Shown: piece by piece, positions 34,328-39,268 of the stretch
How the letters are laid out: each line of letters opens with the position of its first letter
Position numbering within the stretch: the first letter of the stretch is position 1
Assembly (NCBI RefSeq): GCF_019448255.1
Contig: NZ_CP080410.1
Span: forward strand, 2,356,001 to 2,420,000
DNA: 64,000 nucleotides
Direction: 5' to 3'
From: Qipengyuania flava
Lineage (GTDB): Bacteria; Pseudomonadota; Alphaproteobacteria; Sphingomonadales; Sphingomonadaceae
Notes under the pieces: generated by a model
Databases searched by the model: none
The model's input: the letters and a program-made list of their open reading frames with translations, nothing else
What the model was told of the DNA's origin: nothing
Program-made: the position numbers and the translations under genes

Positions 34328-35362
34328 TCAATCCTCCGCGAGCGCGTGCTTCTTGATGCAGTGCCGCAGCTGGTCATAGGTAAGGCCGAGCGCCTTGGCC
34401 GTCTGACGCTGGTTCCAGCGATGCTTGCCGAGCGCATGCTCGACAATGGCGCGTTCGTGCGCGTCGACCGCAGCGCGCAAATCGTCGACATGTTCGAGAT
34501 CCGGCGCTGCAGGAGCGGCCTGTCCGGCCGCCGGTGCAGGAGCAGCCGCTGCCCCGCCGGACTGGACAGGCGGCGGGTTGAACGGCTTCCACGGACTGTC
34601 GAAGGGATCGAAGACGACATGCCCGATGGGCTCGTCCCAATCGTCCCAGCGATAGATTGCGCGTTCGACGACATTGCGCAGTTCGCGCACATTGCCGGGC
34701 CAATCGTGGTTCGCCATTTCATTTGCGACGTGCGATGCGAAGCCCGGCCAGCCCTCCCAGCCAAGCTCTGCCGCCATGCGCCGCCCGAAGTAGTCGGCCA
34801 GCACTTCGACATCGCCTTCGCGCACACGCAGCGGCGGCAGGGTGATGACCTCGAAGCTCAGCCGGTCCAATAGGTCGGCGCGGAATTCTCCTCGCGCGGC
34901 CTTGGCGGGCAGGTCCTCGTTGGTGGCGGCGACGATACGCACGTCGACGCGGGTCGGGCGGTTCGAACCGATCCGGGTAACTTCGCCATATTCCACAGCG
35001 CGCAGCAGGCGTTCCTGTGCGCTCATCGACAACGTGCCCAGTTCGTCGAGGAATAGAGTGCCCTTGTCGGCTTCTTCGAACCGTCCCTCGCGCGCTCTGG
35101 TAGCACCAGTGAACGCGCCCGCTTCGTGACCGAACAATTCGGCTTCGATCAGCGTTTCGGGCAGCGCGGCGCAGTTCATGGTGACGAGCGGTTCGTCCCA
35201 GCGCGTGGAAAGGCGATGCAGGCGTTCGGCGATCAGTTCCTTGCCGGTTCCGCGCTCGCCGATGACCAGGACGGGGCGCCGCATCGGAGCCGCGCGGCTG
35301 GCGCGCTCGACCGCATCGAGGAAGGCGCCGGACTGGCCAATGAACTGATTTTCCCGCTCCAT
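34328..35362 (-). CDS. pspF: Phage shock protein operon activator PspF (sigma-54 enhancer-binding protein)
   Basis: The 344-residue protein from ATG 35362 (MERENQFIGQSGAFLDAVERA) has no N-terminal sensor domain, as in PspF. The AAA+ domain shows Walker A GERGTGKE, the sigma-54 contact loop GAFTGA, Walker B GTLFLDELG and the R-finger region. A Pro/Ala-rich linker leads to a C-terminal helix-turn-helix (NQRQTAKALGLTYDQLRHCIKKH). It activates the divergent psp operon, whose -24/-12 promoter lies about 100 bases away. In E. coli PspA binds and inhibits PspF; the same feedback is inferred here. Confidence 0.95.
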   Translation of the reverse strand: MERENQFIGQSGAFLDAVERASRAAPMRRPVLVIGERGTGKELIAERLHRLSTRWDEPLVTMNCAALPETLIEAELFGHEAGAFTGATRAREGRFEEADKGTLFLDELGTLSMSAQERLLRAVEYGEVTRIGSNRPTRVDVRIVAATNEDLPAKAARGEFRADLLDRLSFEVITLPPLRVREGDVEVLADYFGRRMAAELGWEGWPGFASHVANEMANHDWPGNVRELRNVVERAIYRWDDWDEPIGHVVFDPFDSPWKPFNPPPVQSGGAAAAPAPAAGQAAPAAPDLEHVDDLRAAVDAHERAIVEHALGKHRWNQRQTAKALGLTYDQLRHCIKKHALAED

Positions 35363-35461: not shown

Positions 35462-35478
35462 TTGGCACGGGCTTTGCT
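35462..35478 (+). promoter_or_regulatory. Sigma-54 (-24/-12) promoter of the psp operon
   Basis: TTGGCACGGGCTTTGCT matches the sigma-54 consensus TGGCACG-N4-TTGCA/T. The -24 GG is at 35464-35465 and the -12 GC at 35476-35477, with the exact 12-base step. The first coding start is 51 bases downstream. The region 35363-35461 between it and pspF has A/T-rich stretches that could hold PspF sites, but I cannot define them. Confidence 0.93.
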
Positions 35479-35528: not shown

Positions 35529-35681
35529 ATGTACAACCGCAGCTTCTTCAGCAGCCAGCTCGGACAAGCCGCCATCGCCAGCGTCGCTGCCATGGCGACG
35601 TTCGTCCTGCTGAGCTCGCAGATCGCGGTTACCGCACCCACGCCGGTAGTGGCCGCCTACGAACAGGTCGAGATCGCATGA
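35529..35681 (+). CDS. Small membrane protein, first gene of the psp operon
   Basis: A 50-residue product, MYNRSFFSSQLGQAAIASVA and on to EQVEIA, with one predicted membrane helix (about residues 12-32). GGAGGAAAT precedes the ATG at the best spacing, one of the strongest ribosome-binding sites in the region. Its stop TGA (35679-35681) overlaps an ATG (35678) that opens the PspA frame. It is not a known psp gene of E. coli. As first gene of a stress operon with a strong translation start it should be abundant on induction. Function unknown. Confidence 0.8.
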   Translation: MYNRSFFSSQLGQAAIASVAAMATFVLLSSQIAVTAPTPVVAAYEQVEIA

Positions 35682-35884
35682 CCCTGCCTCCCGACCATGA
35701 TCCCCTTGGGCCGGAGCGTCTCTCCCCCGACAGTCCCCGCGGCAGCAATGCCGACGATGCTTCGGCCCGCCCCCGCTTGTCGCGCATCGAGGAAGAGGTA
35801 GAACGGCTGCGCCGGTCACCGACTCCGACCCGCGACGGCGGTCAGGCGAAGGGATCGAACTTTTTTGCCAACGGAGCACCCCTG
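35678..35884 (+). other. Possible 69-residue N-terminal extension of PspA
   Basis: From the ATG at 35678 the PspA frame is open without a stop. It encodes a Pro, Asp and Ser-rich segment (MTLPPDHDPLGPERLSPDS) and a short charged helix (LSRIEEEVERLRR). The start overlaps the stop of the upstream 50-residue gene as ATGA, like most other junctions in this operon. PspA proteins normally start at MGIFSR. The extension may be a real part of a longer isoform or an untranslated leader. Confidence 0.45.
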
Positions 35885-36574
35885 ATGGGCATTTTCAGCC
35901 GTACCCGCGATATCATCGCCGCCAATTTCAACGACATGCTGGACCAGGCAGACGACCCCCAGAAGATGATCCGCATGATCATCCTCGAAATGGAGGAAAC
36001 GCTGGTCGAAGTGCGCGCAAGCGCTGCCCGCACGATCGCGGACCAGAAGGAAATGCACCGCCACACGGTCAAGCTGGACAAGCTCCAGGCCGATTGGAAC
36101 GAGAAGGCGCAGCTCGCCATCTCGAAGGATCGTGAAGACCTCGCCCGCGCCGCTCTCGTCGAGAAGAAGAAGGCGTCGGACATGAGCGAGCAGCTCAAGC
36201 AGGAAATCTCGGTGCTCGACGATGCCCTGCGCGCCTACGAACAGGACATCCAGAAGCTGCAGAACCGCCTGCGCGAAGCCCGCAGCCGCCAGTCGGCGAT
36301 CGCTGCCCGGCTCGAGAGCGCGGAGAACCGCGTCAAGCTGCGCAGCCTGATGACCAACGAACGCGTCGACGATGCGCTCAGCCGCTTCGACCAGCTCGAA
36401 CGCCGCGTCGACTATGCGGAAGGCCGCGCCGATGCGCTGAGCATTGCCGACCAGTCGGACAAGCCGAGCCTGGCCGACGAGATCGCCGCGCTGGAAGGCG
36501 CCGACGCGATCGATGACGAACTTGAACAGATGAAAAAGGCGCTGGGCAAAGGCAGCGCCGGCAAGGAGGACTGA
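35885..36574 (+). CDS. pspA: Phage shock protein A (PspA/IM30 family)
   Basis: The 229-residue protein from ATG 35885 has the PspA start MGIFSRTRDIIAANFNDML, the amphipathic helix that binds stressed membranes, then the long coiled coil (EDPQKMIRMIILEME-like DDPQKMIRMIILEMEETLVEVRA). The end is LEQMKKALGKGS. PspA (ESCRT-III-like) oligomerises on damaged inner membrane and in resting cells inhibits PspF. GGAG precedes this ATG at about nine bases, so it is a good start, but an in-frame ATG at 35678 would add 69 residues. PspB follows after five bases. Confidence 0.96.
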   Translation: MGIFSRTRDIIAANFNDMLDQADDPQKMIRMIILEMEETLVEVRASAARTIADQKEMHRHTVKLDKLQADWNEKAQLAISKDREDLARAALVEKKKASDMSEQLKQEISVLDDALRAYEQDIQKLQNRLREARSRQSAIAARLESAENRVKLRSLMTNERVDDALSRFDQLERRVDYAEGRADALSIADQSDKPSLADEIAALEGADAIDDELEQMKKALGKGSAGKED

Positions 36575-36579
36575 ACCCC

Positions 36580-36876
36580 ATGGAAGAGATCATTATCATA
36601 CCCGCCATTTTCATCGGGCTTCCGTGGATCATCCTTCACTACATCACGAAGTGGAAGACGGCCGCGACCATCACCACCGATGACGAAGTCCTGCTGGAAG
36701 AGCTCTACAGCCTCGCCAAGCGCCTCGACGACCGGATGGATACGGTCGAGCGCCTGGTCGCCAGCGACAACCCCGAATTTCGTCCCGCGCGGCTGATCGC
36801 CGACAGCGAACAGGACAACCAGCAGCTGCGCGAACTCGAACAGCTGATGGCCGAGAAGAAAGGAGTAGCGAAGTGA
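36580..36876 (+). CDS. pspB: Phage shock protein B
   Basis: The 98-residue protein has one N-terminal membrane helix (IIIIPAIFIGLPWIILHY) and the PspB cytoplasmic helix LAKRLDDRMDTVERLVASDNPEFR, which lines up with RMRERIQALESILDAEHPNWR of E. coli PspB. It is longer than E. coli PspB (74 residues) by a C-terminal Glu/Gln-rich helix. PspB and PspC sense membrane stress and recruit PspA. Its stop overlaps the GTG of pspC as GTGA. Confidence 0.9.
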   Translation: MEEIIIIPAIFIGLPWIILHYITKWKTAATITTDDEVLLEELYSLAKRLDDRMDTVERLVASDNPEFRPARLIADSEQDNQQLRELEQLMAEKKGVAK

Positions 36877-37247
36877 ACAGCCCCCGCACCACGCTCTACC
36901 GTGACAAGCAGAACGCGAAGTTCATGGGCGTCCTGTCCGGGATCGCCGACTACACCGGCGTCAACGCCTTCTGGGTCCGCCTGGGCTTCCTGATCCTCGC
37001 CATCTCGATGGGCTGGCCGATCCTCGCCTACTTCGTGGCAGGGCTCCTGCTGAACAAGAAGCCGGCTCACCTCTACGTCGACAACGACGAGCAGAAGTAC
37101 TGGCAGCGTGTCCGGCAGAACCCGAAGCGCACGGCCCGCGAAATCCGCAGCCGCATGAAGGACGTCGATCGCCGCCTGGCGGAAGTGGAAACCTTCTACG
37201 TCAGCAGCAATCCGCGCCTCACGGCCGAAATCGAACGCCTGCGCTAA
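36873..37247 (+). CDS. pspC: Phage shock protein C
   Basis: The 124-residue protein has the PspC domain: TTLYRDKQNAKFMGVLSGIADYTGVNAFWVRLGF, a membrane helix pair (LILAISMGWPILAYFVAGLLL) and NKKP. The C-terminal tail RRLAEVETFYVSSNPRLTAEIERLR repeats the ER-x3-(L/V)E-x-(I/F) pattern found in PspB and in the six following small proteins. The GTG start overlaps the pspB stop. PspC works with PspB as the membrane sensor. Confidence 0.95.
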   Translation: MNSPRTTLYRDKQNAKFMGVLSGIADYTGVNAFWVRLGFLILAISMGWPILAYFVAGLLLNKKPAHLYVDNDEQKYWQRVRQNPKRTAREIRSRMKDVDRRLAEVETFYVSSNPRLTAEIERLR

Positions 37248-37274
37248 GCCGCACCATCGAGGGGAGTTATTAGA

Positions 37275-37580
37275 ATGGGACTGGAAATACTCGTACCGCT
37301 CGCGCCCTTCATAATGGTGCTCGGCATCATCTGGCTGGTGAACAACCGCAAGCTGGAAGAGAAGCGCATCAGCGCGACGGCGGAGGCCAGTTCCGAGAAG
37401 GCAGCGCAATACGCCAGCCGGGTCGGTGAGCTCGAAGAGCGGGTGAAGGTGCTCGAACGCATCGTCACCGACCGCGGCTACGACATCGCCACCCAGATCG
37501 AGGCCCTTCGCGACCAGCGCGAGGTCGAGGAAAAGGGCTCGGGCGTGCCGCTGGAAATCAAGCAGGGAGAGAAGGCGTGA
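37275..37580 (+). CDS. PspB-like small membrane protein 1 of 6
   Basis: The 101-residue protein has a membrane helix (ILVPLAPFIMVLGIIWLV) and a PspB-type segment LEERVKVLERIVTDRGYDI followed by ATQIEALRD. A ribosome-binding site (GGGGAG) precedes the ATG. It ends GVPLEIKQGEKA, nearly the same tail as the next gene (GVPLNMKSGEKA), which marks them as duplicates. It lies 27 bases after pspC, the largest gap in this part of the operon apart from the one at 38822-38852. Role inferred: extra partner in the Psp membrane complex. Confidence 0.8.
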   Translation: MGLEILVPLAPFIMVLGIIWLVNNRKLEEKRISATAEASSEKAAQYASRVGELEERVKVLERIVTDRGYDIATQIEALRDQREVEEKGSGVPLEIKQGEKA

Positions 37581-37918
37581 ACTGGGGCAGCCCCGAATTC
37601 GTCATCGCGATCGTCGCGCTGAGCATGGCTGGCTGGGTCGTGAACAACTGGATCCGCGCCAAGCACGGCTACCCGCTCGAAGACGAGTGGGGCGGCAAGA
37701 CCGAACGCGGCGACAGCGCCGAAACCAAGGCCCTGAAAGCGGAGAACCGCGAGCTGCACGACAAGCTCGACACCATGCAGGACCGCATGATCGTGCTGGA
37801 AAAGATCGTGACCGACCGCGGCTATTCGCTGCGCGACGAGATCGAGGCCCTGCGCGACAAGCCCTCGGCCACCGACGCCGGCGTCCCGCTCAACATGAAA
37901 TCCGGAGAGAAAGCGTAA
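37577..37918 (+). CDS. PspB-like small membrane protein 2 of 6
   Basis: The 113-residue protein starts at GTG 37577, which overlaps the previous stop as GTGA. It has one helix (FVIAIVALSMAGWVVNNWI), the segment KHGYPLEDEWGGK shared with the next gene (KNGYPLENSWGKA), a coiled coil (KALKAENRELHDKLDTMQDRM) and the PspB-type IVLEKIVTDRGYSLRDEIEALRD. It thus shares its tail with copy 1 and its neck with copy 3. Confidence 0.8.
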   Translation: MNWGSPEFVIAIVALSMAGWVVNNWIRAKHGYPLEDEWGGKTERGDSAETKALKAENRELHDKLDTMQDRMIVLEKIVTDRGYSLRDEIEALRDKPSATDAGVPLNMKSGEKA

Positions 37919-38226
37919 TGGAATTCTTCACCGAAACCGCGATCATCGCCGGCGTTGCCATCATGACCGGCGGCTGGGTTGCGACCACCTGGCTGCGCAT
38001 CAAGAACGGCTATCCGCTGGAAAACAGCTGGGGCAAGGCGGTCTATCCCAAGAACGACCAGGCGGTCGAACGCGTCAAGCTGCTGACCCAGGAAAACGCG
38101 GAACTGCGCGCCGAACTCGGCTCGCTCAAGGACCGGCTCGGCAATGTGGAGCGCATCGTGACCGACAGCGGCTACCACCTGACCCATGAGATCGATCGCC
38201 TGCGCGACGGCAAGGAAGCCAATTGA
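37918..38226 (+). CDS. PspB-like small membrane protein 3 of 6
   Basis: The 102-residue protein starts at ATG 37918 (TAATG overlap). It has a helix (TAIIAGVAIMTGGWVATTWL), the neck RIKNGYPLENSWGKA, a coiled coil (VERVKLLTQENAELRAELGSL) and LGNVERIVTDSGYHLTHEIDRLRD. The PspB-like ER-I-V-T-D is conserved, with Asn-Val in place of Val-Leu. In-frame sequence upstream of 37918 belongs to the other frame of copy 2 and is not used. Confidence 0.8.
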   Translation: MEFFTETAIIAGVAIMTGGWVATTWLRIKNGYPLENSWGKAVYPKNDQAVERVKLLTQENAELRAELGSLKDRLGNVERIVTDSGYHLTHEIDRLRDGKEAN

Positions 38227-38540
38227 TGGACGGCGATCTCATCCTGATCTTCGGCTTCATCATCACCATCGTCACGATGGCGCTGATCACAGCCCAGATG
38301 ATCCACCGCCGCGTGGTCCGCCACGACGAGCGCAAGCTCGAGCTCAAGGCGCGGATCGAAGAGGCCAAGGCCGGCCAGGTCGGCAAGGGCAGCGCCGATT
38401 ACGTCAAGCTCGAAGAGCGCGTCCGCGTGCTCGAACGGATCGCAACGGACGGCAACAGCAACCTTGCCGCCCAGATCGAACAGCTGCGCGACCTTAACGA
38501 GATCGAGGACCTGACCTCGACACGGGAGCGCGCGCAATGA
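38226..38540 (+). CDS. PspB-like small membrane protein 4 of 6
   Basis: The 104-residue protein from ATG 38226 (TGATG overlap) has a helix (LILIFGFIITIVTMALITAQM), a basic stretch (HRRVVRHDERKLELKAR) and YVKLEERVRVLERIATDGN followed by AAQIEQLRD. The basic region after the helix indicates that the C-terminus is cytoplasmic, as in PspB. A TTG one codon earlier is possible. Confidence 0.8.
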   Translation: MDGDLILIFGFIITIVTMALITAQMIHRRVVRHDERKLELKARIEEAKAGQVGKGSADYVKLEERVRVLERIATDGNSNLAAQIEQLRDLNEIEDLTSTRERAQ

Positions 38541-38821
38541 GTTGGCCGTTCGCCGTCGTCTGCATCGTCCTGATCGTTGCGATCGGGAAAGTCATGGCGG
38601 CGAAATACCGCGCGCAGGCCGGGATCATCGAAGACCGGCACGGCAACCAGCAGCGGGTCGAGAAGGAAAGCGATCCCGAGGCCCAGCGCGAGATTGAAGA
38701 ACTGCGTGAACGAATAAAGGTGCTGGAGCGGATCGCCACGGACGGCAACTCGCTCGACGCACAGGAAACGAAGAGGATTTCGGCCGAGATCGAGGCCCTG
38801 CGCGACAAGCAGGCGGATTGA
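38537..38821 (+). CDS. PspB-like small membrane protein 5 of 6
   Basis: The 94-residue protein from ATG 38537 (ATGA overlap) has a helix (WPFAVVCIVLIVAIGKVMA), then EIEELRERIKVLERIATDGN and a somewhat longer end (ETKRISAEIEALRDKQAD). ERIKVLERIATDGNS is almost identical to copy 4, so these two are close duplicates. Confidence 0.8.
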   Translation: MSWPFAVVCIVLIVAIGKVMAAKYRAQAGIIEDRHGNQQRVEKESDPEAQREIEELRERIKVLERIATDGNSLDAQETKRISAEIEALRDKQAD

Positions 38822-38852
38822 GGCGGAACGGGTTCAAGGAGGACATGAGGTG

Positions 38853-39095
38853 ATGTTCGAACCGACTATGATCATTGCAGGCGCTTCGCTGGTCGGGCTG
38901 ACCATCGTGGCAGGCGCCCTGCTCAGGGCCTGGCACGGCTGGCTGGCGTTGAAGCGGCAGGAGCTCGAACAGCACATGGCTCCCGAAAGCGAAGCCGGCA
39001 CCGGTTCGTCCATGGGCGCAGCGCGCATCGAGCTCGCCGACCTCAAGGAGCGGATCAAGAAGCTCGAGGCGATCGCCAGCGGAGTGGACCTTTGA
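38853..39095 (+). CDS. PspB-like small membrane protein 6 of 6
   Basis: The 80-residue protein has a helix (TMIIAGASLVGLTIVAGALL), an amphipathic part (AWHGWLALKRQELEQHM) and ADLKERIKKLEAIASGVDL, a shortened PspB-type end that lacks the final E-I-x-x-LRD. AGGAGG (38838-38843) precedes it. I use ATG 38853; GTG 38850 is possible. Its stop overlaps the TTG start of the next small gene. Confidence 0.75.
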   Translation: MFEPTMIIAGASLVGLTIVAGALLRAWHGWLALKRQELEQHMAPESEAGTGSSMGAARIELADLKERIKKLEAIASGVDL

Positions 39096-39268
39096 CCGTC
39101 GCCCGCACCGACGCCGCCCGCGCCGGGATTGGCCTTGGCAGCGCCATCGCGGTCGCGATCAGCTGGAGCCTGCACTCATCTATCATCTGGGCGGCGATCC
39201 ACGGCTTCTTCGGCTGGTTCTACGTTGCCTACTATGCGTTCACCCGCCCTGGCGGGCTGGCTGGCTGA
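39092..39268 (+). CDS. Small two-helix membrane protein, end of the psp operon
   Basis: The 58-residue product uses TTG at 39092 (TTGA overlap with the previous stop), with GGAG eight bases upstream. It reads TVARTDAARAGIGLGSAIAV, then SWSLHSSIIWAAIHGFFGWF and YVAYYAFTR. The pattern S-I-x-WAxIHGFFGWFYV-x-YY is one I associate with an unnamed family of very small bacterial membrane proteins; no function is known. There is no PspB-type segment. It is easily missed because of its size and start codon. Confidence 0.7.
   Translation: MTVARTDAARAGIGLGSAIAVAISWSLHSSIIWAAIHGFFGWFYVAYYAFTRPGGLAG

Follow-up and report, generated by a model that had tools for sequence, protein, structure and literature searches.

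A psp-linked array of paralogous small membrane proteins in Qipengyuania flava: front parts replaced by diverged alleles between sister genomes, with the tail kept

The stretch analyzed here is 64,000 nucleotides of Qipengyuania flava DNA (NZ_CP080410.1, positions 2,356,001 to 2,420,000 of the forward strand), referred to below as the window, and all coordinates are counted from its first letter. It holds a psp operon in which pspA, pspB and pspC are followed by an array of six further short genes, copies 1 to 6 (o1 to o6). Escherichia coli has one PspB and one PspC. The array copies are paralogous small membrane proteins that have one tail in common, as had been foreseen from the letters of the window; they are tied to the psp operon and are present in relatives. 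What is new here is that the front part of a copy is often swapped for a diverged allele between sister genomes while its tail stays.

Gene content and kinship of the array

The genes of the operon considered first are the following.
35885..36574, plus strand: pspA (TIGR02977, E = 9.9e-83; PF04012, 2.5e-35)
36580..36876, plus strand: pspB, canonical (TIGR02976, 1e-26; PF06667, 1.4e-20; above cut-off)
36873..37247, plus strand: pspC, canonical (TIGR02978, 3.6e-35; PF04024, 4.2e-17; above cut-off)
37275..37580, plus strand: array copy 1, o1 (PspB models, E 1.1e-4 in Pfam and 7.6e-6 in NCBIfam, below cut-off)
37577..37918, plus strand: array copy 2, o2 (own-genome search and profile-profile kinship; present or absent between sister genomes)
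37918..38226, plus strand: array copy 3, o3 (tail against positions 72-121 of PspC model TIGR02978, E 0.0012, far below cut-off)
38226..38540, plus strand: array copy 4, o4 (own-genome search and profile-profile kinship)
38537..38821, plus strand: array copy 5, o5 (own-genome search and profile-profile kinship)
38853..39095, plus strand: array copy 6, o6, with tail end LEAIASGVDL (profile match of 93-94% with o1, o4 and o5)

The original prediction, made without database searches, had read six short genes starting at 37275, 37577, 37918, 38226, 38537 and 38853, and all six, the last with its stop at 39095, are intact open reading frames (ORFs). Each has an N-terminal hydrophobic stretch and a C-terminal segment of the ER-x-x-x-(L/V)E-x-I-(V/A)-(T/S) type. 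The junctions are also as described, with overlaps of 1 or 4 bases that are kept in relatives and with two exceptions, a gap of 27 bases between pspC and copy 1 and one of 31 bases between copies 5 and 6. The stretches said to be common to neighboring copies were found as well, namely GVPLEIKQGEKA / GVPLNMKSGEKA in copies 1 and 2, KHGYPLEDEWG / KNGYPLENSWG in copies 2 and 3 and ER(V/I)(R/K)VLERIATDGN in copies 4 and 5; copy 6 terminates directly behind the segment. The conserved core of the array tail is L-x-x-R-(V/I/L)-x-x-(L/V)-E-R-I-(V/A)-T-D, and a fuller pattern continues past it (...-I-x-x-L-R). By hydropathy, the counterparts of all six copies in relatives have a single membrane helix at the N-terminus, followed by a helical C-terminal part, and the tail would lie in the cytoplasm, because basic residues follow the membrane helix.

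Kinship within the array is firm at the level of sequence profiles. A search of its own genome with o1 found o2 (E = 1.2e-10), o4 (1.6e-8), o3 (2.2e-5) and, weakly, o5 (0.012), and did not find copy 6. Profile-profile comparison (hhalign) gave 97.5-99.9% among copies 1-5, which are mutual paralogues, and for copy 6, the more distant one, gave 93-94% with copies 1, 4 and 5 and 0.6-16% with copies 2 and 3.

Kinship to known Psp proteins is likely, resting on the short helical tail. Copies 1-5 scored 70-91% with the PspB profile, where reversed profiles reached 6.7% at most, and comparison of the same copies with the PspC tail profile gave 84.9-96.2% with one of the two as query and 57.8-94.5% with the roles exchanged (94-96% for the o3 profile). 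Reversed-sequence controls mostly stayed below 25%, with a maximum of 41% between different profiles. The name PspB-like, under which the copies had been introduced, thus holds as a weak kinship of copies 1-5 that stands above its controls, but it is too narrow: the tails of these copies resemble the PspC tail and PspB to much the same degree, no curated cut-off is reached and copy 6 falls outside. A search of each protein against the PspB family brought copy 1 near the models, with 22.6 bits against a cut-off of 25.6 (Pfam) and 26.1 against 51.7 (NCBIfam); o2-o6 scored lower or had no match, and no copy passed any curated model cut-off, where pspA, pspB and pspC each did. The tail part of TIGR02978 was matched by o3 (E 0.0012) and o1 (0.0048), both far below cut-off, and the PspC membrane domain (PF04024) was matched by none of o1-o6. 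The HY-x-T-x-(W)-K block, which follows the membrane helix in PspB, and the closing P-x-(W/F)-R vary little or not at all among 14 PspB sequences and are missing from all six copies.

Searches in other collections gave little. The Protein Data Bank held no relative of pspC or pspB in a sequence search (best E 0.46 and 0.42, respectively), and the PADLOC defence library gave nothing for the array at E 0.1 or better. In a phage library, o5 resembled Rz-like spanins (4.6e-4), and there were matches of o5 and o4 to two unnamed families at 0.003 and 0.008, respectively; all were judged to be helix or coil likeness and were set aside.

Replacement of front parts between sister genomes

Orthologues were cut 14 residues before the motif into a front and a tail, and 12 disjoint pairs with a core identity of 86% or more were formed among 34 genomes. 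Genes with an alignment below 60% stand outside the counts (o2 in four pairs, the o3 front in one), as does o2 in two pairs whose reference genome has no o2; in 6 of the 12 pairs o2 is present in one partner only. DNA identity below 68% was found for 13 of 49 fronts, as compared with 1 of 50 tails, 0 of 36 pspA, pspB and pspC genes and 0 of 23 o6 and o7 genes (o7 being the small ORF that follows copy 6). The Fisher p is 4e-4, which should be read in light of the non-independence of genes within one pair. At least one front is replaced in nine of the 12 pairs, the o4 front falling below the threshold in five and the o5 front in six.

Individual pairs show that the front alleles are replaced with the tail kept. 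Between G028 and G030, the PspA, PspB and PspC proteins are identical, while the o5 front is 36% identical in amino acids, with a proportion of synonymous differences (pS) of 0.79, and the o5 tail is 96% identical, with a pS of 0.14. Amino acid identity of front and tail is 38% and 90% for o4 of G005/G021, 47% and 93% for o4 of G020/G033, and 42% and 84% for o1 of G006/G012. In o5 of G028/G030 and o4 of G005/G021 and G020/G033, the synonymous difference amounts to 0.66-0.79 in the front and 0.14-0.33 in the tail, a contrast that points to replacement by a diverged allele rather than to fast point change. Over about 182 kb of aligned sequence, the sole islet of low identity between G005 and G021 is the o3 C-end together with the o4 front; two other pairs have eight islets over 136 kb and 30 over 134 kb, respectively, and in either pair a single islet falls within the array. 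As all three pairs were picked for showing replacement, these numbers give a background rate only.

The replaced tract usually reaches into the gene ahead. Identity of the preceding gene's C-end averages 0.65 when the next front is replaced and 0.84 otherwise (p = 0.002); it is 0.69 or less in 11 of the 13 replaced-front cases, with two misfits at 0.94 and 1.00, and the tail cores on either side of a replaced front average 0.85-0.87. The pattern agrees with a homologous exchange whose ends fall within tail-coding sequence. Over all genomes, C-end and next front correlate with rho 0.48 (o1), 0.38 (o3) and 0.13 (o4), and C-end and own front with 0.51 (o3) and 0.32 (o4), so that linkage to the next front is no stronger there. 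A general linkage across genomes was thus dropped; it is clear between sisters only.

Exchange appears to be allelic. All 146 best matches of fronts outside their own genome (146/146) lie at the same array position, a figure that is partly circular, as positions were set by the whole-protein best match to the window copies; shuffling of fronts between positions within a genome was ruled out on these matches. Gene conversion between paralogue tails left no significant sign in ten position pairs (lowest p 0.051, o1-o5), and paralogue tail cores are not significantly more alike within a genome than between genomes. As no such conversion was seen, the idea that the tails serve as recombination repeats inside one genome was dropped.

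The alleles fall into deep classes. Orthologues of o1 form two main front-part classes and three small ones, and on the pspABC tree we counted nine class changes for five classes at o5, nine for three at o1 and four for three at o4, all above the minimum; these counts, made on classes with at least two members, use 26-32 of the 34 rows, and 12 of the 31 inner branches are weakly supported. Fronts at 50% identity or more occur outside the genus 66 times for o1-0, 33 for o1-1, 17 for o5-0 and 13 for o5-4, where one genome may count twice, under a G handle and as a named locus, and where the row E.CG2015 is G008 itself. Classes 1-3 of o5 hardly occur outside the genus (2, 1 and 0 front parts).

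Purifying selection acts on fronts that have not been replaced. In each of the copies compared over 13 sister comparisons, whole-gene nonsynonymous divergence (dN) is lower than synonymous divergence (dS). Ten unreplaced o1 fronts have a proportion of nonsynonymous differences (pN) of 0.00-0.06 against a pS of 0.10-0.46, and the unreplaced o5 front of G028/G032 has a pS of 0.34 and a pN of 0.02. Taken together, these results suggest constrained alleles of old standing that pass from strain to strain.

Distribution of the array and flanking features

Within the genus, pspC was closely matched in 35 of 36 relatives, and the 33 loci that were read among them (G013 and G029 left out) all hold 4-7 copies; in these close relatives the array is neither absent nor broken, which agrees with the original prediction. 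The exception, G001, has a distant PspC-domain match and none of the array family. Within the family, pspC is matched at E 1e-12 or better in 188 of 199 genomes, and 60 loci, one per genus and chosen among the matches listed, were read; their copy number ranges from 0 to 8, with no copy in one locus and one copy in three. The array family was found in none of the 12 family genomes without a close pspC match (11 and G001), a negative that has no positive control of its own, although the same profile matched five family genomes in the class-wide search.

A scan of genome contigs with an o6 alignment, of which the best 80 of at least 499 confirmed stretches were taken, led to 77 named loci. Both pspA and pspC were found in 77 of the 80 loci matched by copy 6, and in the other three (L220, L224 and L243) just 0.7-1.7 kb of sequence lies upstream of the match. 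The 77 loci have 3-9 copies, with nine in Croceibacterium salegens and Altererythrobacter segetis, and cannot show loss of o6, since o6 was the search query. Array types and their order recur across genera, with constant linkage to pspABC. The stepwise tandem duplication that had been proposed for the array, if meant as a recent event, is ruled out by this recurrence over the family, and the same-position best matches of the fronts and the tail cores, not significantly more alike within a genome than between genomes, speak against it as well.

Beyond the family, two of 18 loci in other families of the order, both in family f8, hold a single copy beside a second PspC-domain gene. These copies have an MN(P/V)FEMVV front, also found at the o5 position in other genera of the Sphingomonadaceae family. 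A class-wide profile search matched seven of 337 genomes (the family share of the 337 is not listed), five of them in the family; of the other two, one (L151) has two PspC-domain genes with one copy next to them, and the other (L150) has a pair that lies off the operon. In L074, L080 and L151, from other alphaproteobacterial families, a second small PspC-domain gene adjoins a single array relative, the match in L151 being weak (E 9e-7). In L150 (1246-1728, minus strand), two related-looking proteins of 76 and 64 residues stand with a 227-residue protein near a dut-like gene, and no psp gene was recognized within 3.2 kb; the array family may thus be active outside the psp operon too. In Sphingomonas parapaucimobilis (L144, NZ_CP155749.1), three small hypothetical genes, one matching o6, follow pspC; this psp operon lies next to ftsY and other core-like genes on an 880-kb replicon that is recorded as a plasmid and is perhaps a second chromosome or a mislabeled one.

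Four further features flank the genes listed above.
34328..35362, minus strand: pspF, divergent sigma54 enhancer-binding activator (ORF, 344-residue translation)
35463..35477, plus strand: sigma54 -24/-12 promoter-like element, TGGCACGGGCTTTGC (pattern match)
35529..35681, plus strand: conserved 50-residue ORF in the interval between promoter and pspA (similar ORF in 31 of 32 genus loci)
39092..39268, plus strand: o7, 58-residue hydrophobic ORF without the tail motif (kept at the same place in many loci)

The name pspF follows from context and from an annotated pspF at the same spot in S. parapaucimobilis, and a tblastn search with the 344-residue translation found its counterpart upstream of pspA in relatives. 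The promoter-like element is the sole exact match to TGGCAC-N5-TTGC in the window; with one mismatch allowed there are six matches, where 5.0 are expected by chance. Of 51 loci, 46 have a looser sigma54 pattern at most 700 bases ahead of pspA. No terminator-like site was found on the plus strand between 35300 and 39800, and the array may be co-transcribed with pspABC from the PspF/sigma54 promoter. The last gene of the operon is probably o7, which overlaps o6 by 4 bases, is present in many, not all, loci and is followed by a SufE-type gene. It matched no Pfam or NCBIfam family and is unrelated to the array copies (1.3% or less in profile-profile comparison); its sequence follows the pattern GIGLGSAIAVAISWSLH.SI.WA.

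The 50-residue ORF has the pattern MYNRSFF..LGQAA.AS..AM..FV.LSSQI..T, and a hypothetical protein is annotated at its position in S. parapaucimobilis. Upstream of pspA its frame stays open as far as an ATG at 35679, which overlaps the stop of this ORF, and a proline-rich stretch lies ahead of MGIFS in the interval 35679-35884 (LGPER-SPDSP, EEVERLRRSPTPT, FF-S-GAPL). Among the 32 genus loci inspected, most show this stretch wholly or partly. It may be a conserved extension of PspA at its N-terminus, some 60-75 residues long, or else a coupled leader.

Interpretation and comparison with known systems

We propose, at about an even chance of being right, that the array proteins are PspB/PspC-like sentinels, each with a variable recognizing front, exchanged between strains, and a constant docking tail. 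Beside PspA, PspB and PspC, the psp operon encodes five or six further members of a single old family of paralogues, probably single-pass membrane proteins, and all of these would be made jointly from the PspF/sigma54 promoter. The front, consisting of the membrane helix and the adjoining segment, differs by array position and exists as deeply diverged alleles at several positions; the tail is near-constant, helical and probably related to the tails of PspC and PspB. Fronts would watch the membrane for inserted foreign proteins or an altered bilayer and, on sensing, the common tails would join or rearrange the PspB-PspC complex and help to hold PspA, so that PspF is freed and PspA is brought to the site. 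Between strains, homologous recombination ending in conserved tail-coding stretches would replace single fronts, usually taking along the last codons of the preceding gene, so that detectors change and the signaling part stays. That the tail binds PspA or PspBC and that the front recognizes are both suggested by analogy, and we infer selection for front diversity. The multi-component sensor that had been suggested for this locus remains a plausible idea and gains from the pattern of variable front and constant tail.

A natural array with a varying membrane part and a fixed tail would separate sensing from signaling, and front swaps could reveal what PspB/PspC-like proteins respond to at the membrane. 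Should the diversity be under selection, a large bacterial family would have in its psp system a recognition locus that recombines, one that does not appear in the accessible parts of two phylogenomic surveys.

Several results weigh against the sentinel proposal and should be considered when referring to it. The kinship to PspB and PspC was seen in profiles only and may be due in part to a coiled-coil character common to these proteins. The PspC tail reaches 41% against reversed o3 and 29% against PspA, and o3 and o4 each reach 62-65% against their reversed selves. Between PspB and the PspC tail the values are just 1.1% and 32.7%, and copy 6 has at most 1.2% with PspB and no more than 1.3% with either of the two. 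Structure lends this kinship no support, because the AlphaFold2 (AF2) model of o1 is one long helix of low confidence (predicted local distance difference test, pLDDT, 65.6), where the predicted PspB model has three helices (pLDDT 77.0). As four of the 60 pspC-bearing family loci keep no copy or one, a psp operon can do without the array. The replacement signal is also uneven: pS in o1 of G006/G012 is about equal in front and tail (0.47 and 0.49), the o5 front of G000/G007 has a pN of 0.54 against a pS of 0.51, and outside the genus, where solely positions present once were compared, low identity was found for 6 of 32 fronts and 1 of 32 tails in nine pairs (p = 0.10). A permutation test on 30 genomes gave a borderline result for the o4 C-end against the o5 front (rho 0.13, p 0.04), and 36 islets of low identity lie outside the array over the three pairs.

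Other explanations can be weighed on the same evidence. The copies might have a structural or effector role, as extra PspA anchors, the graded set of the original prediction, or as assembly factors rather than detectors, with the variety of fronts reflecting packing with PspB, PspC or lipids and ordinary recombination. A common tail related to that of PspC, the constant association with pspABC and a copy number that varies without loss of the operon would all fit such anchors, which leave unexplained why single positions hold deep allele classes, several with high synonymous divergence between sisters, and why such classes are met again in other genera, when pspB and pspC never drop to an identity as low as this (0 of 24 comparisons); we regard a role as anchors as possible but rather doubtful. 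A stronger form of the sentinel proposal, in which the array is a detector set resembling innate immunity, the fronts recognize membrane-inserted foreign proteins of phages or rivals, balancing selection keeps old alleles across genera, cassettes bounded by tail-coding sequence are exchanged and a single PspA/PspF output is used, seems to us unlikely.

That the copies act as decoys, titrating PspB or PspC via their tails and thereby damping or tuning psp induction with fronts as mere, nearly free membrane holders, would account for the tails being the conserved part. The fronts are not free to vary, however, given the strong purifying selection between replacements in the ten unreplaced o1 fronts, and we consider decoys very unlikely. 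Ranked just after them, as the least probable account, is one without special biology, in which small paralogues undergo ordinary recombination, the array is near-neutral and the divergent fronts represent standing variation of long date, with no selection for diversity. The islets outside the array, the wide variation in copy number and the weaker effect outside the genus are what such an account would expect; yet a replaced front occurs within about 1.5 kb in nine of 12 pairs, as compared with 1, 8 and 30 islets in 182, 136 and 134 kb of pairs chosen for replacement, and neither the purifying selection on tails and unreplaced fronts nor the recurring order and overlaps are what near-neutrality would lead one to expect.

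Among known systems, PspB (PF06667/TIGR02976) is likewise a small single-pass protein of the psp operon with a helical C-terminal segment, and copy 1 is a sub-threshold match to it. The array copies differ in staying below the curated cut-offs and in having neither the HY-x-T-x-(W)-K block nor the P-x-(W/F)-R end; in addition, the true pspB sits beside the array and, unlike the array fronts, does not vary. The single extra copies in other Alphaproteobacteria (L074, L080 and L151) are related proteins, each beside a second PspC-domain gene, but they form no array, and no psp gene was recognized in the 3.2 kb around the L150 pair. In the open-licence literature, we found no paper on PspB in Sphingomonadales or Erythrobacter. 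A published example of extra PspB genes bears an AOL accession, a series that we take to include an Erythrobacter genome. One phrase in the accessible text of Ravi et al. (2024, PMC11237479) speaks of PspB duplicates in the psp operon, with AOL22920.1 as the example. As extra PspB-like genes inside pspFABC, these are possibly the same phenomenon, although that portion of the text gives no copy number, taxon range, division into tail and front or allele exchange; the accessible part of another survey (PMC9239133) describes no such array.

With PspC, the array has in common the tail pattern of copies 1-5 (TIGR02978 positions 72-121), but the copies match no PspC membrane domain. The PspC tail has been described as a divergent C-terminal PspB fused to PspC (PMC11237479). 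In E. coli, segment 69-119 of PspC and its leucine zipper are reported to be needed for contact with PspA, and this segment is placed in the periplasm in one topology (PMC3068692). PspBC is reported to associate in the inner membrane with multimeric secretins, as a complex, and the C-terminal cytoplasmic domain of PspC to bind PspA in the on state (PMC5596341). It is by analogy to E. coli PspC and PspBC that the constant tail of the array would be the signaling or docking part and the variable front the recognizing one.

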